From NCBI GenBank assembly GCA_023261755.1, contig JAGDXS010000020.1, positions 1-57,353 of the forward strand: DNA of 57,353 nt, given 5' to 3'. The first letter of the stretch is position 1; each line of letters begins with the position of its first letter. Shown here in pieces: positions 2,823 to 57,070 of the stretch. The notes under the pieces are model-generated. The model searched no databases, was not told the origin of the DNA, and was given only the letters and a program-made list of their open reading frames with translations. This DNA is from Thermoplasmata archaeon. GTDB lineage: Archaea > Thermoplasmatota > Thermoplasmata > Thermoplasmatales > ARK-15. The translations under genes and the position numbers were made by a program.

Positions 2823-4607
2823 TTAAAATTTGAAATATAGATCTTCATTATTTTGCAAAGCTTCCATAATTTCCTTTCCATGATCAGATTTCATTTTTAT
2901 CTTGATTATACCATCTCTCGAAAGTATAGCTGAAAAAAGAGGTCTATCATTAGCATAAACCATGCCAGATTTTCCTCCAAGATCTTCATTTGCAATTAAA
3001 TAAAAATTATCTTTTTTCTTTTCTACCATTAATTTAAAAGAATTTTCTATCTTCTTGGATTTAAAGGGATAAACCTCTATATGCATTCCTATGTGTTTTT
3101 CTATCTCGTCAATTCTGTTGCCCTTTTTACCTATTATTTCCGGTATCTCATCCTCAGGAACAAATAAATTTATTGTACCTTCCGAAACTATCTCTATCCT
3201 GAAATTTCCCCTTATGTATTTTTTTAATAAATCTTCAATCTTCATTTCTGCAAATTCATATACCTTGCTCTTTTCCCTCTTAATAGGAACAACTACAATC
3301 TGCTCTCCAAATGAATAAATTTCAAATTCTATATTACCTGAGAAAAAGTCCCTCACCTCTATTACAGGCCTTGATAGATCCTCCTCTCTGAGGCCTGAAG
3401 GAACTTTCACCACATATTCCAAAATAAGAACTTTTGATACCTTTCCAGCTTCTATGTGAATTACTGTGTCCACTACCTGCGGTATAACCCCAAGCTCTAT
3501 CCTTCCAATAAGGCGCTGTATAGCATCTACAGCACGAGTTGCATGAACAACGCCTACCATGCCAACACCTGAAAGCCTTAAATCCGCGTAAGTTTTAAAA
3601 TCATCTGTTGTTCTAACTTCGTCAAAAATTGTAACATCAGGTCTTACAAGCAAAAGTATATTCCCAGTTTTTTCCATTTCACCTTCCAGTGCGGTATACT
3701 GTGTTATTTCATCAGAAACCTGCAGGTCGCGAGGCTTTTCCATCGTTTTTACCACTTTCCCATTTGATACATACATCTCTGCAAGAGCCTGAGCAAATGT
3801 TGTTTTACCTGCTCCAGGTGAACCTGAAATTAAAATTCCATTTGATTTTTCATTCAACCTTTTCAGGAGTTTTTCATCAAGGTTGTAATGTTCAATTGAA
3901 AATTTAACAAGGGGTCTTACAGCAGTTATTTCAATACCATCTGAGAAAGGTTCTCTTGTAATTACAATCCTGAATTCACGCAGTTGAACAACAGTAGCTC
4001 CCTTTAGTTCCATCTCAATAAATGAATTTTTATCGCTTCTTGCCCTCTCTATTATGTCTGTGGAAATCTCTTCAAGATCTGAATCAGTTAAAATTTTATC
4101 TGAAATTTTAATGAGCTTGAAGTTTCCAGGTGAACCCTTTTTTGCCATTGGATGGGTATTCTCTTTTAAATGGACGCTCATTGTTTCACTGTCAAAAAAA
4201 TCCTCAATCTTCATTGCAGGTTCTTTTTTCGATTCTATGTAAATCACTTCTAGACCTTTTACCTTAGCCACCATGGATTGGATATAATCTGATGTGACAA
4301 GGGTAGCATCATTCTCAAAGGCAACATTTCTAATTATTTCGTCTATTTCACCACTCTTTGCCCTCTCTATCTGCCATCTATCTGGCCTCTTTCCATAAAA
4401 TTCTATTAATATTTTACCATTCTTTTCAAGATTTTTTAATTTTTCGAGCTCTTTTAAACCTGTAAAACCTATTAATAGTCCTCTGTTAGCTTGCGCCTCT
4501 ATTTCTGAAATCACAGCTTCTGGAATTATTATTTCTCCACCATTCTCACTAACAAGATCGAAAAATTTTCCATTTATTATAACAGAGGTATCAGGCACGT
4601 ATTTCAT
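2823..4607 (-). CDS. PIN domain - P-loop ATPase - KH domain protein (archaeal PilT-like ATPase)
   Basis: N-terminal PIN (MKYVPDTSVIINGK), Walker A GSPGAGKTT, KH-like segment IPEIIGKKGNRIDEIEKHIG. Confidence 0.9.
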   Translation of the reverse strand: MKYVPDTSVIINGKFFDLVSENGGEIIIPEAVISEIEAQANRGLLIGFTGLKELEKLKNLEKNGKILIEFYGKRPDRWQIERAKSGEIDEIIRNVAFENDATLVTSDYIQSMVAKVKGLEVIYIESKKEPAMKIEDFFDSETMSVHLKENTHPMAKKGSPGNFKLIKISDKILTDSDLEEISTDIIERARSDKNSFIEMELKGATVVQLREFRIVITREPFSDGIEITAVRPLVKFSIEHYNLDEKLLKRLNEKSNGILISGSPGAGKTTFAQALAEMYVSNGKVVKTMEKPRDLQVSDEITQYTALEGEMEKTGNILLLVRPDVTIFDEVRTTDDFKTYADLRLSGVGMVGVVHATRAVDAIQRLIGRIELGVIPQVVDTVIHIEAGKVSKVLILEYVVKVPSGLREEDLSRPVIEVRDFFSGNIEFEIYSFGEQIVVVPIKREKSKVYEFAEMKIEDLLKKYIRGNFRIEIVSEGTINLFVPEDEIPEIIGKKGNRIDEIEKHIGMHIEVYPFKSKKIENSFKLMVEKKKDNFYLIANEDLGGKSGMVYANDRPLFSAILSRDGIIKIKMKSDHGKEIMEALQNNEDLYFKF

Positions 4608-6424
4608 TTTTCCTCCTTTTTGATTAGGGCTTTAAGCATTTCATTCACTTTAGAACCTTCAGCCCTACCCTTTACTTCCTTCATTATTTTACCCATAAGT
4701 ACAGCCTCAATATTCTCCTTATTAAGCAAATTCTCATTCAATTTAATAATACTTTTTATTATTTCTTCCAGATCATGCTCATCCAAAACTTTAAACTTTT
4801 TAAAATCAATGTTGCCTGTCCTTAGAAAATCTTCAAGTATAAATGGAATTGCCTCTTTCACTATTTCATTTTGCCTGAGGGCCTGAAATATCTTTTCTAA
4901 GATATCCATTGTTATTTTTTCAACATCCATGCCTGAGGATTCTAGCTCAGGTATTGTATTGAATAAAGTTCTGAATATAGCATTTCCATCATCGTAAATT
5001 GAGAACAATTTTTTGAACTTATCCTCCATGCTTTCATTAATGATCTGTTCAGCCTGTTGCTTTGAGAGGTTGTATTCATTCATGATTTCATTCACTTTTT
5101 CATCATAGCTTTTTGGCAGAGAATTTTTAATCTTTGCAAGAATATTACTATCTATCTGGATGGGTGGTACATCCGTTTCAGGATACATTCTCTCCTTACC
5201 TGGTAGAGGTCTCAGAAATTCTGTTGTTCCATCGTCTTTAGGCCCTCTTGTTTCTGGAACAACTCCATTTTTGGCAGCCTTTATTCTTTCAATTATGTAT
5301 TTCAAACCCTCTTTTGCTTTATCAGGGTCAGAAACAAGCATAAGGAATGCATCATTATCTTTAAGTTTGAAGAAATCTTTTATCTTATTTACTTCCTCTG
5401 CGGATATTCCATAGTTAGGCAATTCATCTGAATGGAAAATACCGGGTATGCCAAGTACTCTGACAACATCAGCGAGCTCCCTTCCAAGTCTGAATTTATC
5501 ACTCTTCAGAAGACCTTTAAATCCAGGAAGAGCTATACCAAGGACCCTACCTCCCTTAGAAATGCCATTCCTTATAATTTTGCTCTCACTATTTTTAAGG
5601 ATATCAGTAATATCCTCAATTTTGAATTTATCCGTTGAAATTTTTCTATTCGATATTTCCTTTGCAAGTTCAATGAGCATATTCTGCCTTTCCATTTCAT
5701 ATTTTACAATTTTATCTATTAAAGAAAGCCTTGAAACACCTTTTACCTCTACTCTCGTTGTATCAATCGAAACATTTAGATCCTGCCTGATTGACCCAAG
5801 GCCTCTCTTTACTTTTCCAGTTGATCTTAGTACGTAACCAATGATCTGGGCAATTTTCTTTACCTCGGATGGATCCTTCATATCCGCACCTGTTGTAATT
5901 TCTATTAAAGGTATACCTAAGCGGTCTAGTCTATACACAGCCTGTCCTTCCCTTTCCTCAATTTTTCTTGCTGCCTCTTCTTCGAGGCAAACGGTTGGTA
6001 TAGAAATCCTTCCAAATTCAGTATCTATGTAACCGTTAATACCAACAAGTGCGGTCCTTTGAAAACCACTTGTGTTCGATCCATCAATAACAAGCTTTCG
6101 CATGAAATGTATTTCATCAACGATCTTGCAGTGGAACATTAATGAAACTTCAATTGCAATTTCCAAAGCTTCTTTATTCACTTCATGTGGTGGCTCTTCA
6201 TCCATTTCCACTAAACATGAATTCTCTGTAATCTGGTATTTGAACGTTCTTTTTCTTACTGATTCCATCATTGCTGCTGCATCATATTCACCCATTTCAC
6301 TCTGAACTGGTCTTAGAGTTCTTCTAAATTCACCCTGAACATTGTCACTTAAATAGGATTCACAGGAACAAAAAAGTTTTTTAGTATCAAGTTGCTGATG
6401 TATTTCCAATCCTGCTTTAAACAT
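4604..6424 (-). CDS. gatE: Glutamyl-tRNA(Gln) amidotransferase subunit E
   Basis: GatB/E signature (GLEIHQQLDTKKLFC, GLGSIRQDLNVSI), C-terminal GatB/Yqey-like domain; next to gatD. Confidence 0.95.
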   Translation of the reverse strand: MFKAGLEIHQQLDTKKLFCSCESYLSDNVQGEFRRTLRPVQSEMGEYDAAAMMESVRKRTFKYQITENSCLVEMDEEPPHEVNKEALEIAIEVSLMFHCKIVDEIHFMRKLVIDGSNTSGFQRTALVGINGYIDTEFGRISIPTVCLEEEAARKIEEREGQAVYRLDRLGIPLIEITTGADMKDPSEVKKIAQIIGYVLRSTGKVKRGLGSIRQDLNVSIDTTRVEVKGVSRLSLIDKIVKYEMERQNMLIELAKEISNRKISTDKFKIEDITDILKNSESKIIRNGISKGGRVLGIALPGFKGLLKSDKFRLGRELADVVRVLGIPGIFHSDELPNYGISAEEVNKIKDFFKLKDNDAFLMLVSDPDKAKEGLKYIIERIKAAKNGVVPETRGPKDDGTTEFLRPLPGKERMYPETDVPPIQIDSNILAKIKNSLPKSYDEKVNEIMNEYNLSKQQAEQIINESMEDKFKKLFSIYDDGNAIFRTLFNTIPELESSGMDVEKITMDILEKIFQALRQNEIVKEAIPFILEDFLRTGNIDFKKFKVLDEHDLEEIIKSIIKLNENLLNKENIEAVLMGKIMKEVKGRAEGSKVNEMLKALIKKEEK

Positions 6425-7664
6425 AGTCTAAACCAACCCTCCTTTCGCTGATTTCTCCTGCAATATTTTTCGTCATTATTTCCTTAACATTGCTGAAATT
6501 TGCCATAGCCCACATCATTTTAACATATGCTACCTCAGGCAGCATATCATAGAGTGGAACAGCCCCTGCCCTTATCATTTCCCTACCTGTTGCGTAAACA
6601 TTTAGGTTAACAGAGCCATATATGCACTGTGATGTAATTCCTATAAATACACCATCACGAACAAGATCCCTTATCACAGGAATAATGTTCTGCGAAACAT
6701 GACCAAGGCCAGTTCCGGCGATTATTATTCCATGCACCCTTGAACCTATGTCATAAAGAATGTCCCTGTCCATGTTTGGATAATAATAAAGAAGTATTGC
6801 CCTTTCATCCATTGCAATTTTTGGAATAATTGGGCCAGATTTTTTTCTGTAATCTGAAATGAATTTTACATTTTCTCCTATTTCAGCGATTGGCCTAGTA
6901 TTTATACTTCTAAAGGCATCCCTCCTGCTCGTGTGCATCTTCCTTACCTTGACACCCCTGTGTGCATAAACTATAGAATCTGAAGTTGTTCCATGCATTG
7001 TTACAACAACTTCACCAAGATCAGTTTCCATGAGCTTCAGTGATGCTAATAAATTTAAATAGGCATCAGAACTAGGCCTGTCACTCGACCTTTGTGCTCC
7101 CACCATAACTATAGGACCAGGAAGATTCTGAAGCATGAATGATAATGCTGAGGCTGTATATGACATGGTATCAGTGCCGTGCGGAATAATTATTCCGCTC
7201 GAATCATTGAATTCCTTTTCAACTTCCTTGGCGATTATTTTCCAATGTTCCACATCCATGTTTTCACTGAAAATTGAAAATAGGTTTCTAGATCTTATGT
7301 CATATTTATCTCCTATCTCAGGTATGGCCAGAAGAAGTTCTTCCTGTGAAACTGCAGGTTTTACTGCTCCCGTTCTGTAATCAACGTAACTAGCAATTGT
7401 ACCACCAGTTCCAAGAACAGATACCTTTAATCCCTTTTTATGATCCTTAATCTTTTTAATCATTTTTTTACTTTCAGCTTTGGAAATTAATTTCATTGAA
7501 AATGAATCATCCTTTTTTATACCTATATTGTATCCATTTTCAAGCTTAATTATTATAATATCATCACCGCTGAAGATGTGCTTTGGCATAAGCACACCTC
7601 TATATGTTCCTTGTTTAGTTTTAATTTCCACAAGATCTCCAGGTTCAAAATCCATGGGGACCAT
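6417..7664 (-). CDS. gatD: Glutamyl-tRNA(Gln) amidotransferase subunit D
   Basis: Asparaginase-like motifs LGTGGTIASYVDYRTGAVKP and IIPHGTDTMSYTASALSFML; 8-bp overlap with gatE. Confidence 0.95.
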   Translation of the reverse strand: MVPMDFEPGDLVEIKTKQGTYRGVLMPKHIFSGDDIIIIKLENGYNIGIKKDDSFSMKLISKAESKKMIKKIKDHKKGLKVSVLGTGGTIASYVDYRTGAVKPAVSQEELLLAIPEIGDKYDIRSRNLFSIFSENMDVEHWKIIAKEVEKEFNDSSGIIIPHGTDTMSYTASALSFMLQNLPGPIVMVGAQRSSDRPSSDAYLNLLASLKLMETDLGEVVVTMHGTTSDSIVYAHRGVKVRKMHTSRRDAFRSINTRPIAEIGENVKFISDYRKKSGPIIPKIAMDERAILLYYYPNMDRDILYDIGSRVHGIIIAGTGLGHVSQNIIPVIRDLVRDGVFIGITSQCIYGSVNLNVYATGREMIRAGAVPLYDMLPEVAYVKMMWAMANFSNVKEIMTKNIAGEISERRVGLDYV

Positions 7665-7699
7665 AAATCGAAGGAATAAAATTAATCTTATGGTACACC

Positions 7700-8293
7700 A
7701 TGATCAATCTAATGTTTGTATCTCTAGAGGGCATAGATGGCTCAGGAAAAACATCAATAGGAAAAATGATGAAGGAGTTATATGAAAGCAAGGGTAAGAA
7801 AGTTTACCTTACAGAAGAGCCTACCAGGATAATATTTGATACAAAAAGCATCATGGAAAAGGATCTTGATCCTTTCACAAGGGCTTTCATATTTATGGCT
7901 GACAGGGTAGAGCATTTAAAAGTAATTAAAGAAAAGATTTCACAAGGATTTATTGTAATCTGTGATAGGTATGTTGATTCTACATTTGCATATCAGGGGA
8001 GTGCACTTGAAAAAAGATTTGGATCAAAGGATAGGACGTATGAATACCTTTTAAAAATCTATGAACCTGTATCACTAGACCCAGATATTGTAATTTATTT
8101 GGATGTAGAACCAGAAATAGGATTGAAAAGGATTGAATCAAGAAAAAGGGAAATATTTGAGAAAATAAGTGAATTGGAGAATGTAAGGGAATTCTATTTA
8201 TATTTATCAAAAATTAGAAATTATAGGATATATGATTCAAACAAAGATTTGAAAAGTTTATGGCAAAATATTTTAAGTGATCTAAACCTGTGA
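7700..8293 (+). CDS. tmk: Thymidylate kinase
   Basis: EGIDGSGKTS P-loop, DRYVDSTFAYQG, YLDVEPEIGLKRI. Confidence 0.93.
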   Translation: MINLMFVSLEGIDGSGKTSIGKMMKELYESKGKKVYLTEEPTRIIFDTKSIMEKDLDPFTRAFIFMADRVEHLKVIKEKISQGFIVICDRYVDSTFAYQGSALEKRFGSKDRTYEYLLKIYEPVSLDPDIVIYLDVEPEIGLKRIESRKREIFEKISELENVREFYLYLSKIRNYRIYDSNKDLKSLWQNILSDLNL

Positions 8294-10039
8294 TTTAATG
8301 TATGAAACATTCTGCTTGTAAACTTTAATTAAATCGTTCATTGTAACAATGCCTAAAAATAAGCCTTTTTCAACAACTGGAGCCCATGTGGACTTTATTT
8401 GTGACATTACTTCCCACGCCTGCTCTGCACTTGAATCGAGGTGAACATACGCTATACCAAACTTTATAAAATCTTTCACTTTTTTTTCATCATTAGATTC
8501 AATATCCGCTAAATAAACAACACCGAGGAATCTATTATTTTCATCGACTACAGGTAAAGAAATAAAGCCGTTCATTTCCATTAGAATTCTAGCCTTATGA
8601 ACACTTTCATTCATTCCAATCTTTATATCATGGATTTGAGTTTGTGAAATTTTTATGCTCGTTAATAATGGTGTATTATATTCACCGAGATGAGCAGGTG
8701 ATTCTTTCCTCGTGGGCACTTGTGACCTGTATATTGAACTGTTTCCAGAAATTAGGTATGATGCTGCAACTGAGATCATTGCAGCCGGTAATAATTGTAA
8801 GCTTCCCGTCATTTCAACTACCATAATCATCACAGATAGAGGAACCTTTCCAGCTGCCGCAAAAAATGAGAGCATTCCAATTATCACAAATGGAATATAT
8901 GATGTTACTATACTTGGAAATAATGCATTAAAAAGAATACCAAATAGAAGGCCAAGCGAAGCGCCTATCACCATGCCCGGAGCAAAAACACCCCCGCTTC
9001 CGCCAGAGCCAATTGAAAATGATGTGGCCAGAATTTTCATTATTGGTAGCATTATTAAAATAATTATCAATGGCAAACCAGATGTTGGAATTATTTTAAG
9101 ATTATTTGACATGAATATCTGAATCCAGCCATACCCTACTCCCATCACCTCTGGGAATAGAAGAGCTATAATACCTGTAATAAATCCACCCAGAGCAGGT
9201 TTGAAATATTTATTAATCTTAATATTTTTGAAAAAATCATGAATTCTGTAAAAAGTTTTAACGTAAAAAATTGCAACTAGACCAGAAACAAGGCCAAGGA
9301 TAAGGTAAAAGGGCAACCTCATAGGGTTGAACATTCCAACATAATATCCAAAAATGGGCGTAAAACCAACAACAGAGCCAAATATTGAATAGCCTATTGC
9401 TGATGCTATAAGACTGGGGTAAATTATTTCAGGCTCTATGTCCTTTTTGTAAAGAATTTCTGCCCCAAGTATTGCACCACCTATTGGTGCTTTGAAAATT
9501 GTGCCTATGCCTGCACCAATGCCTACGGCCACGGCTCTTCTTCTATCTTCAGGACTTAAATGTAAAAGATCTGCAACTATTGAACCTAAACCTGAGGAAA
9601 TCTGTGCTGTAGGACCTTCCCTTCCTGCACTTCCACCAGAACCTATTGTAATAGCTGATGCAAGCGTTTTTATTGGAATCACAATCTTTCTTACCTTTCC
9701 CTGCTTGTTATGATAAGCATCTATTGCAGCATCTGTACCATGGCCTTCGGCTTCAGGCGCGAATTTATAAACAATGAGACCTGAAAGAAGGCCACCTAAT
9801 GTTGTTGAAACAGGAATTAGAAAGTATCTAGAATTTGTAATGCTAAAATTAAGGTATGACCCTTCACCAACTGGAACAGGAAATGAAATGCCAAGAAAAA
9901 TGTTCATAAATAAATAAGAAAAAAAGATTATTGCATAGTAGAAAAGCAAAGCACCAAGACCTGCTATTATCCCTATTATAGTTGCTATAATAAACCATCT
10001 TTGAAAATATGGAAGATCATTAATGTGAAATTTTTTCAT
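8282..10039 (-). CDS. ClC-family chloride channel/transporter with C-terminal CBS domains
   Basis: GSGGSAGREGP, GSGGSGGVFAPG, two C-terminal CBS-like segments. Confidence 0.93.
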   Translation of the reverse strand: MKKFHINDLPYFQRWFIIATIIGIIAGLGALLFYYAIIFFSYLFMNIFLGISFPVPVGEGSYLNFSITNSRYFLIPVSTTLGGLLSGLIVYKFAPEAEGHGTDAAIDAYHNKQGKVRKIVIPIKTLASAITIGSGGSAGREGPTAQISSGLGSIVADLLHLSPEDRRRAVAVGIGAGIGTIFKAPIGGAILGAEILYKKDIEPEIIYPSLIASAIGYSIFGSVVGFTPIFGYYVGMFNPMRLPFYLILGLVSGLVAIFYVKTFYRIHDFFKNIKINKYFKPALGGFITGIIALLFPEVMGVGYGWIQIFMSNNLKIIPTSGLPLIIILIMLPIMKILATSFSIGSGGSGGVFAPGMVIGASLGLLFGILFNALFPSIVTSYIPFVIIGMLSFFAAAGKVPLSVMIMVVEMTGSLQLLPAAMISVAASYLISGNSSIYRSQVPTRKESPAHLGEYNTPLLTSIKISQTQIHDIKIGMNESVHKARILMEMNGFISLPVVDENNRFLGVVYLADIESNDEKKVKDFIKFGIAYVHLDSSAEQAWEVMSQIKSTWAPVVEKGLFLGIVTMNDLIKVYKQNVSYIKSQV

Positions 10040-10127
10040 ATTATTATAAACCTAATTGCGATATCTTATTAAAATATATCCACAACAATAAGAAATAATT
10101 TTAATAGAAGTTCACATATCATCCATT

Positions 10128-11198
10128 ATGACTTTAGATAAAATATTTGAAAATGTGGATGCAGTTTTGATTTATAACCAGGGTGAACCAGTCGTTGATC
10201 TAAACTTCTTTTATTTCACAAGGCTTCTAGATTCTGGCCTTTTTGAAGGATCATATTTATTCATAGATAGAAATACAAAATCAATAATAACAAGCGAGCT
10301 TGAAGAAACTTCAGCAAAAAAATCGGGATGGGATGTAAAGATTTTTAAGAAAGGAACAGAAAGGGATGAAATATTGAAAAATTTACTTTCAAATAAGAAA
10401 AAAATTGGCATATCATTTTCAACATTTACAGTAAAGGAATTTAATAACATAAAGGGCAAATTTTCCAATTTAGATTTCATTGACATTGATCCATATCTTA
10501 ATGAACTTAGGCAGATAAAGGACGATTTCGAAATATCTTTGATCAAGGAAGCTGCAAAAATAGCAAGCGATGCTGTTGACGATCTTATTGATTACATAAA
10601 AGAAGGAATGACAGAGAATGATCTTGCAGCGCAGCTTACCTACATGCTCATGAAAAATGGAGCACAGGAAAATGCTTTTACACCCATTGTTGCATTTGGA
10701 GAAAATTCTGCAGAACCTCATTATTTTTCAGGAAACAGAAAATTGAGGAAAGGCGATTTTATTCTAATGGATTTCGGTGCAAGGTACAGGAAATACAATT
10801 CTGACATAACTAGAACATATGTTTTTGGAAAAGGGAATGAAAAACAGAAAAGGATGTATGATGTTGTTAAGCATGCGCAGCAAATAGGTATAGATGCAAT
10901 AAGGGCTGGAAAAACTGGTAAAGAGGTGGATGCTGAGGTAAGAAATTTTATTGATTCAACTGAATTCAGGGGTCTTTTTATTCATTCCACAGGCCACGGC
11001 GTAGGCCTCGCAGTTCATGATCATCCTGCCTTAGCTCAGAGCTCAGATCTTGTTCTAAAGCCTGGGATGGTTGTTACAGTTGAGCCTGGTGTATACATAA
11101 AAGGTTTTGGCGGTGTTCGTATTGAGGATGATGTTCTTGTCAAAGAAAATGGCCATGAGGTGTTATCATCTGCGGATAAGGAGTACAGGGAAATTTAA
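10128..11198 (+). CDS. pepQ: Xaa-Pro dipeptidase/aminopeptidase (M24 family)
   Basis: Metal-binding motifs [35 protein letters not shown]. Confidence 0.9.
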
Positions 11199-14491: not shown

Positions 14492-15295
14492 ATGAAAATA
14501 GTAGTAGTAGGCGGTTCAGGTTTCGTAGGAAGGAATATAATACCTCATCTGGCAAAAGAACATAGCGTAAGCTACATATCAAGATCTGAAAATAAAAAAC
14601 TGAAAAGCATAGGGGTTCAGTGGATAAAAGGGAATATTACAAATGAAAATGATCTTAAGATCATTAGCGAATTTGACATTGTAATAGATCTAGTTGCGGT
14701 TATAAACGAGAAAGAACAGAAACATGAAGATGTTAATGTTAAGGGCATGGAAAACATATTAAAAAACGCCGGGAATTCAAGGATAGTTTACTTCTCTGCC
14801 ATGAATGCAGATAATGCTAAAACAAAGTATTTCATTACAAAAAGAAAGGCGGAGGAAATGCTTATAAAGAGAGGAAACTACATAATACTCAGGCCATCCA
14901 TAATCTATGGCGAGGACGATTATCTTACCCAAATGCTTATTAACCTTAAAATGCCCTTTATACCAAAATCTGGAAAACTCTGCCCAGTGTATGTGGAGGA
15001 CATAGCAAATATACTGATGAAAGTAATCAATAAAGAGGGTATATTTGAAATTTCAGGGCCCGATGATCTTACCCTCAAGGATATGTTCGATATAATAAGA
15101 AAAATAAATGGAAAAGGTAAATCATATACAGTACCTGATTTTCTTGTGAAAATGCTTTCACCATTCCTGCCTATTACAAAAGAACAGTTAACCATGCTTT
15201 CATTGGATTTCTGCAAGGGCAAGGAAATTTTTTCAGAATTAAATATTAAGCCTTCAAGGTATGAAGAAACAATGAGAAAATTATTTTCACGCTAA
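14492..15295 (+). CDS. NAD(P)-dependent epimerase/NADH-dehydrogenase-like extended SDR
   Basis: N-terminal VVVGGSGFVGRNI, LRPSIIYGEDD. Confidence 0.85.
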   Translation: MKIVVVGGSGFVGRNIIPHLAKEHSVSYISRSENKKLKSIGVQWIKGNITNENDLKIISEFDIVIDLVAVINEKEQKHEDVNVKGMENILKNAGNSRIVYFSAMNADNAKTKYFITKRKAEEMLIKRGNYIILRPSIIYGEDDYLTQMLINLKMPFIPKSGKLCPVYVEDIANILMKVINKEGIFEISGPDDLTLKDMFDIIRKINGKGKSYTVPDFLVKMLSPFLPITKEQLTMLSLDFCKGKEIFSELNIKPSRYEETMRKLFSR

Positions 15296-15383
15296 GATCT
15301 TTTTTTGATTCTTTGAAGTGAGATCCTTTTTTGGATCGAGCAGTGCCTTTGGCCCGGCATTCTGCATTTAAGGGGGTGTTAAT

Positions 15384-15476
15384 ATGAATGCAGATGCACC
15401 GGAAGTGGCTTTCTTCCCTTGCCAAAAAAAGAGAGGAAGAAAATGTGTTTTTTGGTCCGGAGCACAGCCTGAATAA
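15384..15476 (+). CDS. Possible 30-aa leader ORF MNADAPEVAFFPCQKKRGRKCVFWSGAQPE
   Basis: ATG preceded by GGGGGTG SD-like stretch at 15372-15378; stop TAA. Confidence 0.35.
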   Translation: MNADAPEVAFFPCQKKRGRKCVFWSGAQPE

Positions 15477-15558
15477 GGCCCATGGCGGTCCCTGCTGACC
15501 TTTTCTTGCACGAGAAAAGGCAGTTTAAACGGGATTCCGCACAGGACCAGCGGTCATG

Positions 15559-15568
15559 GGAGGTGATC
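15559..15568 (+). promoter_or_regulatory. Perfect 10-nt Shine-Dalgarno GGAGGTGATC for the small ORF starting at 15572
   Basis: Fully complementary to the conserved 16S 3' end GAUCACCUCC; 3 nt before ATG. Confidence 0.75.
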
Positions 15569-15571
15569 GCT

Positions 15572-15757
15572 ATGGAAAAAGAGAAAAAAGGAATAGATAA
15601 ATTTTTCGGAACAACATATGTTGAGATGTGTTTTGAAACATTATATGGAAGGATGCCTAGTGAAATTGAATTATTTGAAATCATGAAGGACAGGTCAAGG
15701 CAGTGTGCCCTCATATACAGAGCAAACAGAAAGATCCTTGAAGAAACGATGAGGTAA
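15572..15757 (+). CDS. Small conserved-looking protein (61 aa; MEKEKKGIDKFFGTTY...), ORF track extends it to 15482
   Basis: ORF continues with coding-like composition; the perfect SD supports the 15572 start. Confidence 0.65.
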   Translation: MEKEKKGIDKFFGTTYVEMCFETLYGRMPSEIELFEIMKDRSRQCALIYRANRKILEETMR

Positions 15758-15763
15758 TGAGGG

Positions 15764-16420
15764 GTGCTTAAAATGATGCTTGCATTACCAGACAGCGATA
15801 TAAAAAATGTTAACTTTTTTAAAATAAGGAATGAGATATCTAGCATATTACTTTCAGTAGAGAAAATTTCATTCCTTATTTTTTATGATTTTTCATTAAG
15901 GGTAGCATTTGAATCTTACGATAATAATTTTTCAATATTCTTGAACAATTTTAGGAATATATATCCAGTAAGCTACCAGGTTTATGGATCTGCAGTAAAA
16001 AAAGTGAATGAATTATTTTTTAAAAGAAACGCAGTATTTCCTTTAATTCCTAGGAATGATGTTCTGTCTTTTATTGCAAATAACATAGAATTAAAAAAAC
16101 AGGGCTTTTTTATTATAGAAATTGAAAGATCAAAAATACCTTTAGCTGCAATGAAGAAATTGGTTGTTAGGAGATTTATAAACAAAACAAGAAATTCATC
16201 CGAGAAAGAGATAGGTAAAGAGGTAATGAAAAAATTATCTTTGCCCATTTACAGGGTCAGAATGTACTCAAGCGATCCAGAAATAATGAAAATTGCATAC
16301 GATTTCAAAACAGGGCAAGGGCTGACATCAAAGGGTAAAAAAATTTTCATGAATACCTATGAGCTTGCATATTTTATACATTATCCTATGAGCTTGAATT
16401 CATTGAGAAGGCCGTGGTAG
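15764..16420 (+). CDS. Hypothetical protein, possibly the detached N-terminal region of a TraD/HerA-like ATPase
   Basis: GGGGTG SD before the start; C-terminus NTYELAYFIHYP resembles the segment preceding Walker A in VirB4/TraD-like proteins; overlaps the ATPase start. Confidence 0.6.
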   Translation: MLKMMLALPDSDIKNVNFFKIRNEISSILLSVEKISFLIFYDFSLRVAFESYDNNFSIFLNNFRNIYPVSYQVYGSAVKKVNELFFKRNAVFPLIPRNDVLSFIANNIELKKQGFFIIEIERSKIPLAAMKKLVVRRFINKTRNSSEKEIGKEVMKKLSLPIYRVRMYSSDPEIMKIAYDFKTGQGLTSKGKKIFMNTYELAYFIHYPMSLNSLRRPW

Positions 16421-18369
16421 CAATGTACAACTTCTTTAACATTGAAAAATTTGATAGAATACCATCGGGTCACGGAGCAATATTTGGAAAAACAGGATCA
16501 GGAAAAACATCAATGCTGCATTACATTGCCAGAAAACTCTCTGAAAATGGTGAAACAGTGATAGTTCTTGATCCACACGGAGATCTTTCAAAGAATTTGC
16601 TTACCGACAAAGCAATTTACATTTCTCCTCTTTTTTTATCAAAGAAAGATAAAAAATTATCAATAAAAATGAATTTAATGGATGCTGGAACAGAAGTAAG
16701 TGAGGAAAGGATTGTATACATATCCGAATCATTGAAGCTTATATTTTCTCAGGATTACGATTTTTCAAAAGGTACATGGGGCCCTAGGTTGGAAACAATT
16801 TTTTCATCCTTGATTCCAAGAGTAATGAGAAATGTAAAAAATGCCACTCTCACAGATGTTGCAAATGCACTCATAAATAAAAAATTCCTAGATGATGATA
16901 TTTTTATAAAATCTTACTATGGAAAGGGTTACCTTGATTATATACAGAGTACGCTCAATAAAATAATTCCGGTGACAGAAAACATATATTTGAAAGAATT
17001 TCTTTGCAGCAAGGATATTTCTTTCTCATTTTTAAGAAATGATATAAGTGGAAAATTGTTATCCATATATTTGGCAAAAACAGAACTCGGAGAATTTATA
17101 TCCAGAATGGCAGGTTCTGCAATCCTAGCAATGATATCACATGCAGTATCATTTGGAAAAATAAGAGATGTCAATCTTATTATAGATGAAATAAAGGATT
17201 TTTCACCATATCTATTGCCAGCAATGTTCAGTGAATCCAGGAAATATGGTCTCAGAATAATAATTGCAGCACAGTATATAAATCAGCTCAACCAGGATCT
17301 TTACAATTCAATTATGGGAAATGTTTCCTGGATAAGTGCATTTAAACTTTCACCCGATGATGCATCCAGAGTATCAAAAAAATTTTCCTATGATAATGAG
17401 AAGATAGAAAGAACAATAATTGATCTGCCCCAAATGCACTTTTTAATGAAATATGAATCATTAAAATTAATTAAAATACCATTTATGGAATTATTAAATG
17501 ATGAAAACATAATTGAAAAATCTTATTTAGAATATGGATCTGAGATTGATTTTAATTTCAAAAATGTTTTATCAATAATATATTCACTACAGGAAAGAAA
17601 AATAAAGGCAAATTTCAATGATATTTTAATGGAATACGAGAACATATTCAACGGAAATTTCAATTCACTTGATTCAGCGCTTAGAGTAATGCAGTTTAAC
17701 AACTTAATAATAAAAAATGAAGATGGATTTTCTCTTACTGAAAAAGGAATGGAGAATTTGGTGGAAAATGGTCAAGTGGAGTGGGAAACTCCTTATCATA
17801 GATATCTTGTATCAAGAACAGCTGAATATTTTAGATCTTTGGGATTTACAGTTATTTTTTCCAGAGCATGGAAAAATGAACCTGATCTAATAGCAAAGAG
17901 TAAGAACCAGGAATTTTATATTGAAGCGGAGTATGGTGATCTCAAATCACCTGGAAAAATAGTGAATCATCTAGTTCAATGGCATAATAAAAAGCTCATT
18001 TTTGTAACATTTACAGAATTTGGTTTGAAGCTATTTAAAATTTTGTGCATGCCAGCTATGGTCGATTCAAATGGAAATGTAACATACTATAGGAATAACA
18101 GTGAATATGTGGATTACAGAATGGCAGGCGATTATTCAAGGAAAACTTGGATATTGGTTTTACCTGGTCCGGGAAATATTGGAAACATAAAGAAATTTTC
18201 CTACAAAGGATTAGAGAACCTTGATATAGCACATTTAAATGAAAGTGATCTTTTCAATGTTGATGATGAAAACATATTTGACATATTCGGCCAAGAATTA
18301 TTCATAAAGGAAGGAGAAAAAATAGTAAGGAGGTGCGAATATTTTTATAAAAAAATAAAAAATTATTAA
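16414..18369 (+). CDS. HerA/TraD-like P-loop ATPase with winged-helix-like region and C-terminal PD-(D/E)XK nuclease-like domain
   Basis: Walker A GKTGSGKTS, Walker B NLIIDEI, AAQYINQL; C-terminal YFRSLGFTVIF...EPDLIAKSKNQEFYIEAEYGD (D...ExE pattern). Alternative start ATG 16423. Confidence 0.75.
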   Translation: MVAMYNFFNIEKFDRIPSGHGAIFGKTGSGKTSMLHYIARKLSENGETVIVLDPHGDLSKNLLTDKAIYISPLFLSKKDKKLSIKMNLMDAGTEVSEERIVYISESLKLIFSQDYDFSKGTWGPRLETIFSSLIPRVMRNVKNATLTDVANALINKKFLDDDIFIKSYYGKGYLDYIQSTLNKIIPVTENIYLKEFLCSKDISFSFLRNDISGKLLSIYLAKTELGEFISRMAGSAILAMISHAVSFGKIRDVNLIIDEIKDFSPYLLPAMFSESRKYGLRIIIAAQYINQLNQDLYNSIMGNVSWISAFKLSPDDASRVSKKFSYDNEKIERTIIDLPQMHFLMKYESLKLIKIPFMELLNDENIIEKSYLEYGSEIDFNFKNVLSIIYSLQERKIKANFNDILMEYENIFNGNFNSLDSALRVMQFNNLIIKNEDGFSLTEKGMENLVENGQVEWETPYHRYLVSRTAEYFRSLGFTVIFSRAWKNEPDLIAKSKNQEFYIEAEYGDLKSPGKIVNHLVQWHNKKLIFVTFTEFGLKLFKILCMPAMVDSNGNVTYYRNNSEYVDYRMAGDYSRKTWILVLPGPGNIGNIKKFSYKGLENLDIAHLNESDLFNVDDENIFDIFGQELFIKEGEKIVRRCEYFYKKIKNY

Positions 18370-19292: not shown

Positions 19293-19706
19293 TTGTATAT
19301 CTGTAGATTTAATTCTGGAAATATGATCAAGGAATTTTTTATTGATGAAATTGTAGCCATAAGGGAAAAGGAAAAAACTGTGACGAGTTTAAAATTCACA
19401 GTTACATTTGATTCATTAAAAAAGGATAATGAAGTATTGGATATTTATTACACATTTTCTGCTTTATATGAAGATAGTGAAAACAGCAAGGTTGGAGAAA
19501 TACGATTGGTAGGCCATTTAATTGACAAAGAAGAAAATGAAGAAATGGCCAAAATGGTAAATGATTATTGGAATACAAAAAAATCGCTTCCAAAAGGATT
19601 GCTTGATAAAGTATTAAATGTACTTAATTTTGAGTGCGGTGCGAGAGGCACTCTTGTTGCATATGCTATGGCATTTCCTCCACCAATACCTCTAGGTAAA
19701 TCATAA
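19293..19706 (+). CDS. Hypothetical protein (137 aa)
   Basis: ORF immediately upstream of the MFS gene; C-terminus AMAFPPPIPLGKS. Confidence 0.6.
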   Translation: MYICRFNSGNMIKEFFIDEIVAIREKEKTVTSLKFTVTFDSLKKDNEVLDIYYTFSALYEDSENSKVGEIRLVGHLIDKEENEEMAKMVNDYWNTKKSLPKGLLDKVLNVLNFECGARGTLVAYAMAFPPPIPLGKS

Positions 19707-52804: not shown

Positions 52805-55800
52805 ATGAAAATATTCAGGGTAAGGAAGGGCATGGAAGAAATACTAGTGTTTTCAATAGCTTTTCTAATGTTAACATCCTATTCATCAATAATTTCTTCA
52901 GGTAAAATAATTAATGATAAAATACAATTTACAAGTATAAAGATGAATCTTCCAGTAAACAATTCTAAAATTGTTAGAATTTTCAACAATGAAATAAGTG
53001 TAATGATCACGTTCAAATTAAGAAATGAATCCGTACTTCAGAATTATCTATCCCAGATAGACAATCCAAAAAGTGAAATGTACCATAAATATATTGATAG
53101 AAAAGAATTTTCAGAATTGTTTGGTTCATCACCAAAATTTTATTATTCCGCTGTGAACTATTTTTCCCAATTTAAAGGAATAGATGTTGAAACATTTTCA
53201 GACCATGTATCAATAGTTCTTTCAGGAAAGGCATCTTTAATTGGTAATGTATTTAATGCAAAATTTGGGTTGTTTAGCAAGGACGGAAGATCATTCTATT
53301 CAATTGCCCAGGAACCATCTCTTCCAGTATGGATTGCAAATAACGTTTCCTATATTTCTGGATTGGATAATTTTACAAGTTTTTCTATAAACCTGCATAA
53401 AGAAAAAATTATTGACGATGGTAATAAAATAACTCTTGATAATGGATATCCAAATCCATTATCCTATGGTGATTCACAGTATATTTTTGGATCAGATCTA
53501 CAGGTAGCATATGATGAACAAACTCTTTTCAATTTCACATATCCTGTTAACGAGGTCATTGCAACTATTCTATGGTCAGGACAGTATATGGGAGAGAATA
53601 TTACTACACCTTATGGTGAATTGATAAATGGAACTTTAGTAGGACCATTTAACCCAAATGACATTTATGCATATTTCAATGACACCATCCCATACTGGGA
53701 ACCAAGATCTAGGGTAATTCCTGTGCCATTAAATGGTGCACCCGAGCCTAGCCCTCTTTCCTCCTATGATATAACAGGTGCAGTGGATGAAAATACTCTT
53801 GACATAGAAATGGCAGGTAGCCTGGCACCAGGAGCAATAATATTCAATGTTTATGGGCCTAATTCAACTCAGGAGAATCTGGATCAGGCCCTAGCTTTTA
53901 TCCTAAATCCAAATTCATCTTACAAGGAATTGAACAATGTAACTGTAATATCAAATTCATGGGGATCACCTGAATATAATGATACCTCATGGTATGAATA
54001 TTTGCAGGAAGCACAGGCAAGGGGAATCACAGTTTTAGCCAGTTCTGGAGATTCTGGGAATAATCAAAATAGTTCAAAATATATGCAACCGAACTATCCT
54101 GGCGATTGGTTAGAATTTCCAGCATCAATGGCTTACAATAATTTTGGTGTTACAGCTGTTGGTGGAACCACATTAAATCTTAATTCCAATCTTCACATAG
54201 AAAATCAGATTGCCTGGTACATATCACAGAATGATACAGCAAATGGAGGTCCAGCCGGAAGCACTGGAGGAATAAGTTACATTTTTAAGGAGCCATTATG
54301 GCAATTGAATTCTTTATCCAATAAAGTAATAAAAGGCCTTGGCAGAGCAGTTCCTGACATAGCTGCAATAGCAAATAATACAATTGCTTACATCACTGTA
54401 AACAATACCAATTACTATGATAATCCATTTTTTTATGTATTTTGGGGTACTAGCATTTCATCACCTGTAGAAGCAGGTATTATAGCAGAAATGAATGCAG
54501 TTCTTAAGATCCATAACCGTGAGCCTCTTGGATATTTGAACTCAGCAATTTATTTGATTGGGTATGATCAATTGAAACCTTTGGTAAATACAAGTGAGAC
54601 AGGATATATATTAACTAACTCATATAATTCATCATTACCCACTCTGCCCTTCTGCAACGTAAATTATGGAAGGAACCATGTTTATCAGGCAAATTATGGT
54701 TATAATCTAGTCACGGGCTGGGGATCTATAGATGCTTACAATCTAACAATGTATATCCTTAATGTAAATTACAATGGAACATATGGCGCCCTTGATGGTG
54801 TTGAAAATATTCTGAATCTAACATCATTGAATGTAACATCATATTATCTAAATGGTACAGTAAACACCTATTTCAATGCATCTGTTCAGCAGAATTTCTT
54901 TTTAGCAAATTCAATGGGTGCACCTGTGTATTGGATACAGAATGTGATTTACATAAATGGTTCAGCAGAATCTGGTTGGAACATGACATACTCTGGCTGG
55001 GTAGTTTACCCATTTTACGGTCTATATCCAAATCTTACAGTTTATGAATACAATTATCCTCTTGGGAAAATTGTAAAATTGCCGCATTTATTCGATATTA
55101 AGAGTTGGATTTCCAATTTCACATTTATGAGGCAAACAATGAATTTTGAAGTAAATTCTCATTTGTTTCAGCTTCCAGTTCCAGGCGCATCTTACATTAT
55201 AGGATCTTACAACTATTCTTATCTTTGGCAGGGAAAGAGATACACCAATGGACCTTATCCTAATTATGCAAACCCTGGAGGTCTTTCACCTCAGTTTTGC
55301 CTTGTTGGTGGGCCATCAGGAGGTATAGGGTATTTCAAAGATCCAACTAGCGCGACCATGAAATCATATGTTTTGCCATTAGGTTCTGACAATTATATTA
55401 GAGCATTCACTTCATTATTTAATTATACAAACGATCAAACTGGAGAAGCAGCAGAAAATCTTAACTGGGTTCTTGAGAATGGATATTGGCAGATGTACAT
55501 CTTAAATGGAAGTCAGATTCAAGGGGTAATATCTGTTGAGCCTAAAAAAACATTTTACAATGTTACATTTGAAGAACAGGGTCTTCCATCTGGTACACTT
55601 TGGAATGTAACTTTTAATGGAATTACAGAAATTTCAAGATCTAACGAAATAACATTTCAGGAATATAATGGAACATATTTTTTCTCTATCAGTTCTGTTA
55701 ATGGTTACAATTCAAATCCGAATTCAGGTAAAATAAAAGTTAATGGTAATGATGTAATTCAAATTATTTTCAAGCCTAAATCCCTAAACAAATTTTCTGT

Positions 55801-57070
55801 AACGTTTGAAGAATATGGATTGCCATTGGGCATTACATGGTCAGTCACATTGGGTGGAATCACAAAATATTCATCAAGCAATGAAATAATTTATTATGGC
55901 ATAGAAAATGGATCATATTCATTCACAATCGGCAATGTGAATGGTTATAATTCAAATCCAAATTCAGGTATAATTAGTGTAAATGGTTATAATATAACAC
56001 AGTTAATATCATTTTCAAAAATTCTTTACAATATAACCTTTAATGAAACAGGCTTGAAATATGGAATTGCTTGGACAGTAATATTGAACGGTACCTCAAA
56101 AACAGCAATTTCAGGTAATATAACCTTTTATTTACCAAATGGCACATACAAGTTTGAAATTATATCAGGAAATAATGATTATGCTCCAAATCCTTCAATC
56201 TTAACCGTTACAGTTGATGGAAAAAATATGACATTAAAAATATTATTCTCATTGATAGAATATGAAATTTTATTCAATGAATCTGGACTTCCAGCAGGCA
56301 TTGCCTGGTACGTTAATTTAAGCAATGGCCAATCATTTTCATCATCAATTAATAGGATAATATTTAATGAGCCAAATGGATCGTATTATTTCATGGTAGC
56401 AAGCATAGACAAAAATTATAGACCTGTATTTTCTTCGGGATCATTCATTGTAAACGGTTCACCTGTAAATGAATTAATTACATTTAACCTTTTGACATAC
56501 AAAATTACATTCAATGAATCAGGATTACCTTATGGCCAGATTTGGAATGTCACATTAAATGGAATTACAAAATCATCACCGAATAACACAATAATATTCT
56601 ACGAACCTAATGGATCATATGATTATTCCGTCTCTGGCATACCAAATTATAGGGCTGTGAATGCCTCAGGCATTGTTAACGTGGATGGTAATCCTATCAA
56701 TTTGAACATTAATTGGTCAGTAATTTTTTATAAAATTACAATAATTGTGAATGGAATTTCAAATGGAACATTATGGTCTGCAACACTCCATGGAATTACA
56801 TTCAACGGAAAATCAATAAATATTACTTTATCTTCGGAAACGAATAAAATAGTATTTTATGAACCTAATGGATCATACTTTTATAATGTCAAACTACCAA
56901 ATAATTATATCATTTCAGGAATAAATGGGCCAATAGTTGTTTCAGGAAATCAAGTAGTTAAGAATTTTAATGCCCAGTGGGGAAATGATATCTTAATAAC
57001 AATAATACTTGTAATTGCTGCAATTGCAATAATAGGAATCATACTCATCATAAAAACAAGGAAAAAATAA
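52805..57070 (+). CDS. S53 (sedolisin/kumamolisin) peptidase with pro-domain, C-terminal repeats and TM anchor
   Basis: DENTLDIEMAGSLAPGA (Glu/Asp), GTSISSPVEAG (catalytic Ser), N-terminal pro-kumamolisin-like region, C-terminal TM. Confidence 0.9.
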   Translation: MKIFRVRKGMEEILVFSIAFLMLTSYSSIISSGKIINDKIQFTSIKMNLPVNNSKIVRIFNNEISVMITFKLRNESVLQNYLSQIDNPKSEMYHKYIDRKEFSELFGSSPKFYYSAVNYFSQFKGIDVETFSDHVSIVLSGKASLIGNVFNAKFGLFSKDGRSFYSIAQEPSLPVWIANNVSYISGLDNFTSFSINLHKEKIIDDGNKITLDNGYPNPLSYGDSQYIFGSDLQVAYDEQTLFNFTYPVNEVIATILWSGQYMGENITTPYGELINGTLVGPFNPNDIYAYFNDTIPYWEPRSRVIPVPLNGAPEPSPLSSYDITGAVDENTLDIEMAGSLAPGAIIFNVYGPNSTQENLDQALAFILNPNSSYKELNNVTVISNSWGSPEYNDTSWYEYLQEAQARGITVLASSGDSGNNQNSSKYMQPNYPGDWLEFPASMAYNNFGVTAVGGTTLNLNSNLHIENQIAWYISQNDTANGGPAGSTGGISYIFKEPLWQLNSLSNKVIKGLGRAVPDIAAIANNTIAYITVNNTNYYDNPFFYVFWGTSISSPVEAGIIAEMNAVLKIHNREPLGYLNSAIYLIGYDQLKPLVNTSETGYILTNSYNSSLPTLPFCNVNYGRNHVYQANYGYNLVTGWGSIDAYNLTMYILNVNYNGTYGALDGVENILNLTSLNVTSYYLNGTVNTYFNASVQQNFFLANSMGAPVYWIQNVIYINGSAESGWNMTYSGWVVYPFYGLYPNLTVYEYNYPLGKIVKLPHLFDIKSWISNFTFMRQTMNFEVNSHLFQLPVPGASYIIGSYNYSYLWQGKRYTNGPYPNYANPGGLSPQFCLVGGPSGGIGYFKDPTSATMKSYVLPLGSDNYIRAFTSLFNYTNDQTGEAAENLNWVLENGYWQMYILNGSQIQGVISVEPKKTFYNVTFEEQGLPSGTLWNVTFNGITEISRSNEITFQEYNGTYFFSISSVNGYNSNPNSGKIKVNGNDVIQIIFKPKSLNKFSVTFEEYGLPLGITWSVTLGGITKYSSSNEIIYYGIENGSYSFTIGNVNGYNSNPNSGIISVNGYNITQLISFSKILYNITFNETGLKYGIAWTVILNGTSKTAISGNITFYLPNGTYKFEIISGNNDYAPNPSILTVTVDGKNMTLKILFSLIEYEILFNESGLPAGIAWYVNLSNGQSFSSSINRIIFNEPNGSYYFMVASIDKNYRPVFSSGSFIVNGSPVNELITFNLLTYKITFNESGLPYGQIWNVTLNGITKSSPNNTIIFYEPNGSYDYSVSGIPNYRAVNASGIVNVDGNPINLNINWSVIFYKITIIVNGISNGTLWSATLHGITFNGKSINITLSSETNKIVFYEPNGSYFYNVKLPNNYIISGINGPIVVSGNQVVKNFNAQWGNDILITIILVIAAIAIIGIILIIKTRKK
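55556..56980 (+). repeat. Six tandem ~75-85 aa repeats within the S53 peptidase
   Basis: Recurrent (Y)xITFNESGLPxGxxWxVxLNGI...EPNGSYxF...NPNSG...VNG units. Confidence 0.85.

Follow-up and report, generated by a model that had tools for sequence, protein, structure and literature searches.

What does a DNA motor carrying a nuclease-like domain on the same polypeptide do among the housekeeping genes of an archaeal chromosome? The question is raised by a compact module at positions 15296–18369 of a 57,353-nucleotide stretch of Thermoplasmata DNA (contig JAGDXS010000020.1), which was analysed as a whole and is here called the window; it forms contig C6 in an archaeal draft genome of 1.22 Mb. A sequence-only reading had described three tightly packed same-strand open reading frames (ORFs) ending in a 651-aa P-loop ATPase. 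This description was confirmed: the ORFs at 15482–15757, 15764–16420 and 16414–18369 are all on the + strand, co-directional and touching, and both Walker motifs were located. We consider it moderately probable that the module provides the coupling motor and the DNA-processing functions for a type IV DNA-exchange system resident on the chromosome. The features on which the argument turns are as follows.

15773 to 16420, + strand: partner protein of ~215 aa (maximal ORF from GTG 15764, 218 aa), overlapping the motor ORF
16414 to 18369, + strand: 651-aa protein (possible start ATG 16423) with a VirD4/TraG-like motor, a winged helix and a PD-(D/E)XK-like domain
16486 to 16509, + strand: Walker A GKTGSGKT, residues 25–32 (GKTGSGKTS, 25–33)
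17185 to 17190, + strand: Walker B acidic pair D258-E259, in IIDEI
17557 to 17736, + strand: winged helix-turn-helix, residues ~382–441, predicted by AlphaFold2 (AF2) and Foldseek
17791 to 18048, + strand: PD-(D/E)XK-like core, residues ~460–545, with H462, D491, E504-x-E506, D509, K515 and H519

A coupling-type motor with a nuclease-like tail

Judged by its sequence relationships, the motor is a VirD4/TraG-type coupling ATPase resembling type IV coupling proteins (T4CPs). It scored above the Pfam cut-offs for TrwB_AAD_bind (41.7 bits, cut-off 20.5), TraG-D_C (26.7, cut-off 22) and DUF87 (43.7, cut-off 23.2), and TrwB_AAD_bind was matched by 19 of 19 aligned family members. Of the two HerA equivalog models, one gave 22.9 bits (cut-off 970) and the other 17.9 (cut-off 800), and the CedD equivalog model gave 33.8 bits against 600. 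In a tree of 40 proteins the motor fell with TraG proteins of archaeal plasmids and T4CPs of actinobacteria, and the HerA and VirB4 sequences from the same genomes branched separately. Since some deep forks were weak and long branches were flagged, the tree was used only to exclude HerA and VirB4 and to read the pattern within the order, where families f1 and f3 formed supported groups and f6 held together weakly (f1, f3, f6 and, below, f27 are anonymous family numbers of the genome collection). A true HerA is encoded elsewhere in the same genome. The sequence-only reading had called the motor HerA/TraD-like; the likeness to HerA failed on the equivalog scores and the tree except at the level of the broad superfamily.

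The C-terminal tail (residues 372–651) was modelled by AF2 from an alignment containing 59 homologues. The model, with a predicted local distance difference test score (pLDDT) of 87, showed a winged helix followed by elements in the alpha-beta-beta-beta-alpha-beta order of PD-(D/E)XK enzymes. Foldseek matched the winged helix to DtxR-type winged helix-turn-helix domains (probability 1.0) and the nuclease core best to archaeal Holliday-junction resolvases (Hjc; E 0.007, probability 0.8–0.99), the latter with partial overlap only; a sequence search of the PDB with the tail returned zero matches. H462, D491, E504, E506 and D509 were 100% conserved in the ~60 Thermoplasmata homologues covering them. 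Because five residues are invariant and the predicted fold agrees, the likeness to a nuclease exceeds chance. A PD-(D/E)XK-like fold is well supported by the model, and nuclease activity is plausible. The D...ExE pattern of PD-(D/E)XK nucleases that the sequence-only reading had seen at the C-terminus was borne out by these residues and the fold, as was the fusion of motor and nuclease-like domain in one protein; the AlphaFold check that it had proposed yielded a PD-(D/E)XK-like fold and not a non-nuclease one.

Kinship with the coupling proteins of archaeal conjugative plasmids

The tail can be followed beyond the Thermoplasmatales through a bridging family, f27 (loci L152, L153 and L155), in which the partner is likewise followed by a motor that carries a winged helix and a nuclease core. 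Profile comparison with hhalign joined the tail of the window family to the f27 tail (E 9.7e-8), and the f27 tail to the tail of Sulfolobus plasmid TraG (E 6.9e-8) and to haloarchaeal plasmid proteins (E 1.8e-9). Among 68 control comparisons with unrelated real families no E-value was better than 0.025, and none of 30 shuffled profiles in each case came up to a linking value. A tblastn search with the f27 motor matched records of pING1, pARN-type plasmids, pNOB8, pKEF9 and a 103-kb plasmid of Thermococcus nautili 33-3, which from its strain and size we take to be pT33-3. The winged helix and a PD..(I/V)ExE core were read in the pNOB8, pT33-3, pING1 and pKEF9 proteins, and the D/E/E residues are kept in plasmid homologues from other phyla. 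On these profile comparisons the window tail is homologous, via f27, to the VirD4/TraG C-terminus of pNOB8, pING1, pKEF9, pT33-3 and haloarchaeal plasmids, and the nuclease tail reads as a feature common to archaeal VirD4/TraG motors. We did not find it described in open-licence PMC papers, and an earlier description elsewhere is possible.

The VirD4/TraG proteins of the Sulfolobus plasmids pNOB8, pING1, pKEF9 and pARN4 and of Thermococcus pT33-3 share the motor clade, winged helix and nuclease-like core of the window protein. They are single chains of 1000–1370 aa within conjugative elements, whereas the window version is chromosomal and solitary and appears to have its N-domain in a separate, overlapping gene. 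In all 18 f1 and f3 loci checked, the partner ORF overlaps the motor ORF, by 7–38 nt, and because the overlap recurs throughout, translational coupling is suggested; the most likely partner start is ATG 15773. The C-terminal end of the partner, YELAYFIHYP..RRPW, resembles both that of the f27 partner (SVPEIASMVHLP..LPW) and the end of the N-domain in single-chain coupling ATPases (SVPELAALAHLP). Using hhalign, the window partner matched the f3 partner family (E 8.2e-5), and across 209 columns the f27 partner aligned with the N-domain found in actinobacterial single-chain coupling proteins (E 1.5e-4). The sequence likeness makes it likely that the partner is a split-off N-terminal domain of a coupling ATPase.

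A universal two-gene operon is not claimed. Neither the Thermoplasma partner (A3) nor the c3 gene that adjoins other f6 motors was significantly related to the window partner, and in many f6 genomes the neighbour of the motor is a citrate synthase or an FAH-family hydrolase. Only in the f27 lineage does a further gene stand immediately before partner and motor (L152, L153 and L155); it encodes a 106–107-aa protein with three transmembrane (TM) segments that may be a membrane anchor or a pilin. Three further f27 loci (L156, L157 and L160) encode stand-alone proteins of 144–176 aa that resemble the nuclease tail, beside conserved genes for 82–84-aa and ~750-aa proteins.

The plasmid kinship bears on a gap in the understanding of archaeal conjugation. 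The VirB4/VirD4-like genes of pT33-3 are required for conjugation (PMC12857230), and archaeal conjugative plasmids carry VirB4 and VirD4 homologues with no relaxase identified (2025 review PMC12857230; likewise PMC9905601 and PMC6563490). MOBC relaxases are themselves members of the PD-(D/E)XK superfamily (PMC12857230). Directly after a related single-chain coupling ATPase, Embleya encodes a Replication-relaxation protein (PF13814, E 2.7e-36) whose winged helix and H..PD..LExD..R..K..Y motif lie in register with the archaeal tails. MOBC/PF13814 relaxases share a winged helix and a PD-(D/E)XK-type motif with these tails; the bacterial relaxase is a separate protein, whereas the archaeal tail is fused to the motor. 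Membership of the MOBC/Replic_Relax family is not claimed: the motif aligns, but hhalign of the archaeal tails against a shallow Replic_Relax profile of three sequences was not significant (E 0.43–0.7), and no archaeal tail matched PF13814 in a Pfam search to E 10.

The archaeal tail may nevertheless work like a motor-borne relaxase. Our tentative suggestion, possible but short of probable, is that it is the missing relaxase-equivalent of archaeal conjugation, both on plasmids such as pNOB8 and pT33-3 and in chromosomal DNA-exchange systems of the Thermoplasmatales. If so, the DNA-processing enzyme would ride on the coupling motor itself. For the gap of how DNA is cut and loaded in archaeal transfer, the tail offers a gene, a domain and residues (D491, E504 and E506), and it spans Sulfolobus, Thermococcus and haloarchaeal plasmids as well as Thermoplasmatales chromosomes. 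Even an inactive tail would make the fused fold an apparently undescribed part of archaeal conjugation machines.

Chromosomal setting and competing explanations

The genome of the window also encodes a minimal locus resembling a type IV secretion system (T4SS), flanked by housekeeping genes.

L179 (C35:58000-71665), 6416 to 10495, - strand: minimal T4SS-like locus on contig C35

The locus encodes a 119-aa TrbC/VirB2-like pilin candidate (E 0.0012), a 347-aa VirB6/CedA-like protein with eight TM segments, a 249-aa protein with two, a 108-aa protein with three and a 546-aa VirB4-type ATPase, and its gene order is repeated in f1, f3 and f6 genomes. Among genomes at least 90% complete, VirB4 (assigned by hand, leaving out HerA-length matches) was present in all 19 module-bearing genomes and in 12 of the 18 that lack the module (p 0.008 by Fisher's test, uncorrected for kinship). 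The gene set is similar to that of the Ced system of Sulfolobales (CedA/CedA1/CedB/CedD), which is chromosomal, combines a pilin, a polytopic membrane protein and VirB4/HerA-type ATPases, and mediates intercellular DNA exchange (PMC11868833, PMC9905601). CedB and CedD are VirB4-like and have no nuclease tail, whereas the window motor is VirD4/TraG-like. For Cuniculiplasma, represented in our homologue set by a metagenome-assembled genome (MAG; L070), part of a published account already notes a TraG/TraD/VirD4 ATPase (arCOG04816), of which CSP5_0791 may belong to the window family, with VirB4 and membrane proteins (PMC5155288). This too is a chromosomal Thermoplasmatales coupling ATPase accompanied by a T4SS-like cluster; the nuclease tail and the partner gene go unmentioned in that part of the account. 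The sequence-only reading had taken the module to be self-contained, a view that did not survive: the homologous fusions are conjugative plasmid coupling proteins, and the genome has its own T4SS-like set on another contig.

Under the mechanism we propose, a hexameric motor of the VirD4/TraG type would be built from two chains: the partner, supplying the N-domain from its own, translationally coupled gene, and the 651-aa protein with its N-terminal half. In the C-terminal tail, the winged helix would bind DNA, the PD-(D/E)XK-type domain would nick or cut it at the motor, and the processed DNA would be pumped to the minimal VirB2/VirB6/VirB4-like channel that another part of the chromosome encodes. 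The analysis establishes the domain architecture, the invariance of the putative catalytic acids, the motor clade, the homology of the tail to that on plasmids of archaea proven to be conjugative, inheritance within the Thermoplasmatales and the T4SS genes of the genome; the hexamer, the cutting of DNA, the physical link to the T4SS and the direction of DNA movement are steps that we infer. A nuclease-like domain on the coupling motor also suggests that acidophilic Thermoplasmatales exchange DNA by a chromosomally encoded route.

Two other loci were noted. A second coupling-type ATPase of 903 aa, with no nuclease tail, is encoded in L148 (C23:41000-60000) at 7219–9930 on the - strand and shared a tree group with the CedB-like ATPase encoded in the T4SS loci of f3. 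It was rejected as a member of a T4SS locus, since its neighbours are lipid and pyrimidine genes, together with a Hef-like helicase, and not T4SS genes. The T4SS locus of an f4 genome (L185, 9826–13999) contains four consecutive genes for proteins of 320–405 aa with pilin-like segments.

The module itself is surrounded by chromosomal genes of metabolism and transport; as the sequence-only reading had stated, genes for a relaxase, an integrase or a pilus are missing next to it. The upstream SDR gene (14492–15295) adjoins the module in sister genera too, at 55–66% identity. A scan of 84,980 species genomes recovered 62 homologous loci, every one from a record titled Thermoplasmata, Thermoplasmatota, Thermoplasmatales, Thermoplasma, Cuniculiplasma or Euryarchaeota/Aciduliprofundum MAG, and IMG/VR viral contigs gave zero matches. 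When 293 genomes spread evenly over the phylum were sampled, the tail occurred in f1 and f6 and, outside them, in the lineage f27, with a single weak match in f9. The distribution is order-wide and follows lineage, as expected of a module inherited within the Thermoplasmatales. The sequence-only reading would have counted as its refutation that homologues always sit in conjugation loci with relaxase and pilus genes, and this turned out to be only half the case: the plasmid homologues lie in conjugation loci, those of the Thermoplasmatales do not, and a relaxase is known in neither.

The solitary position of the module among housekeeping genes, together with its lack of a membrane anchor, would also suit a stand-alone motor-nuclease that acts like HerA-NurA in DNA repair or anti-virus defence and has no role in DNA transfer. 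HerA-NurA follows the same archaeal logic of motor plus nuclease, although its motor belongs to another clade and its nuclease, of a different fold, is encoded by a separate gene. Weak PADLOC matches at motor level (HerA and, as the best, mads_8, covering the motor alone) also speak for the defence role entertained by the sequence-only reading. On the other side, no defence partner or conserved defence neighbour was found at the locus. The motor falls in the TraG/T4CP clade while a true HerA is encoded elsewhere, the nearest homologues by architecture are conjugative plasmid coupling proteins, no second defence gene adjoins the module in a conserved manner, and the lineage-following distribution is not patchy as that of defence islands is. 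We regard a repair or defence role as rather unlikely. That homologues reside on plasmids in other archaea could instead mean that an integrated conjugative element is decaying and that the module is what is left of it, retained by chance. This is highly improbable, given intact reading frames and invariant motifs across ~60 loci, the conserved order with the SDR gene, a motor tree that tracks the families and the absence of matches among IMG/VR viral contigs.

Several observations weigh against the preferred reading of a coupling motor in a chromosomal DNA-exchange system. The module is not adjacent to the T4SS genes and lies on a separate contig; the 12 VirB4-bearing genomes that lack it indicate that a T4SS can exist without the module; and the co-occurrence statistic ignores kinship. 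By hydropathy, neither the motor nor the partner has a convincing TM segment, unlike typical VirD4, and because the N-terminal TM anchor is absent the motor is filed as T4CP-like and not as canonical VirD4. Profile significance for the partner as an N-domain is moderate, the direct comparison of the window and f27 partners gave no support (E 0.15), and the AF2 model of the partner was poor (pLDDT 54, 4 sequences) and was left out of the fold search. In the tail, E506 stands where PD-(D/E)XK enzymes have the catalytic lysine, giving E-x-E in the aligned archaeal families, and the basic residues downstream at 515 and 519 vary, being R/K in most homologues and K515/H519 in f1. PD-(D/E)XK enzymes can shift the lysine to the next helix. 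The altered lysine position and the K/H pair of f1 would fit a DNA-exchange coupling motor whose tail is catalytically dead and serves only in DNA binding or substrate recruitment. A mere binding domain, however, would not need H, D, E, E and D to be invariant over deeply diverged Thermoplasmata, the D/E/E residues persist in plasmid homologues of other phyla, and a shifted lysine would be in keeping with the superfamily. We consider a dead tail unlikely.

The small ORF, leader and neighbouring genes

Upstream of the partner lie the two remaining features of the module.

15296 to 15571, + strand: leader, a GC-richer, moderately structured intergenic stretch
15572 to 15757, + strand: small ORF of 61 aa (maximal ORF from 15482, 91 aa), with syntenic homologues in two sister species

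For the small ORF the most likely start codon is ATG 15572, after GGAGGTGAT. The homologues that the two sister species carry at this locus showed 35% and 37% identity (E 2.6e-5 and 2.0e-4), and because it is conserved in place in both, sequence comparison identifies it as a real gene, conserved at genus level. Two sister species (L022 and L023) have an extra gene for a 167–169-aa protein between the small ORF and the partner, which the window does not have.

The leader has a GC (guanine plus cytosine) content of 0.47 versus ~0.31. The structured leader proposed earlier was found to be moderately so: its predicted RNA fold was better than those of shuffled sequences (z -2.43; 3/200 shuffles), and an Rfam search of the leader matched zero families. 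The idea that it is a repeat element was dropped, as a repeat-element search found one copy only in the genome.

Three other proteins of the window were noted. A PIN domain–T2SSE ATPase–KH domain protein is encoded at 2823–4607 on the - strand. A 137-aa protein with a weak PDDEXK_10 match (19293–19706, + strand) has relatives of 27–29% identity that in f3, too, lie a few genes downstream of the motor-nuclease, a trace of old synteny. A 1421-aa ORF with a pro-kumamolisin activation domain (52805–57070, + strand) has relatives near the motor-nuclease in L024, L028 and L031.

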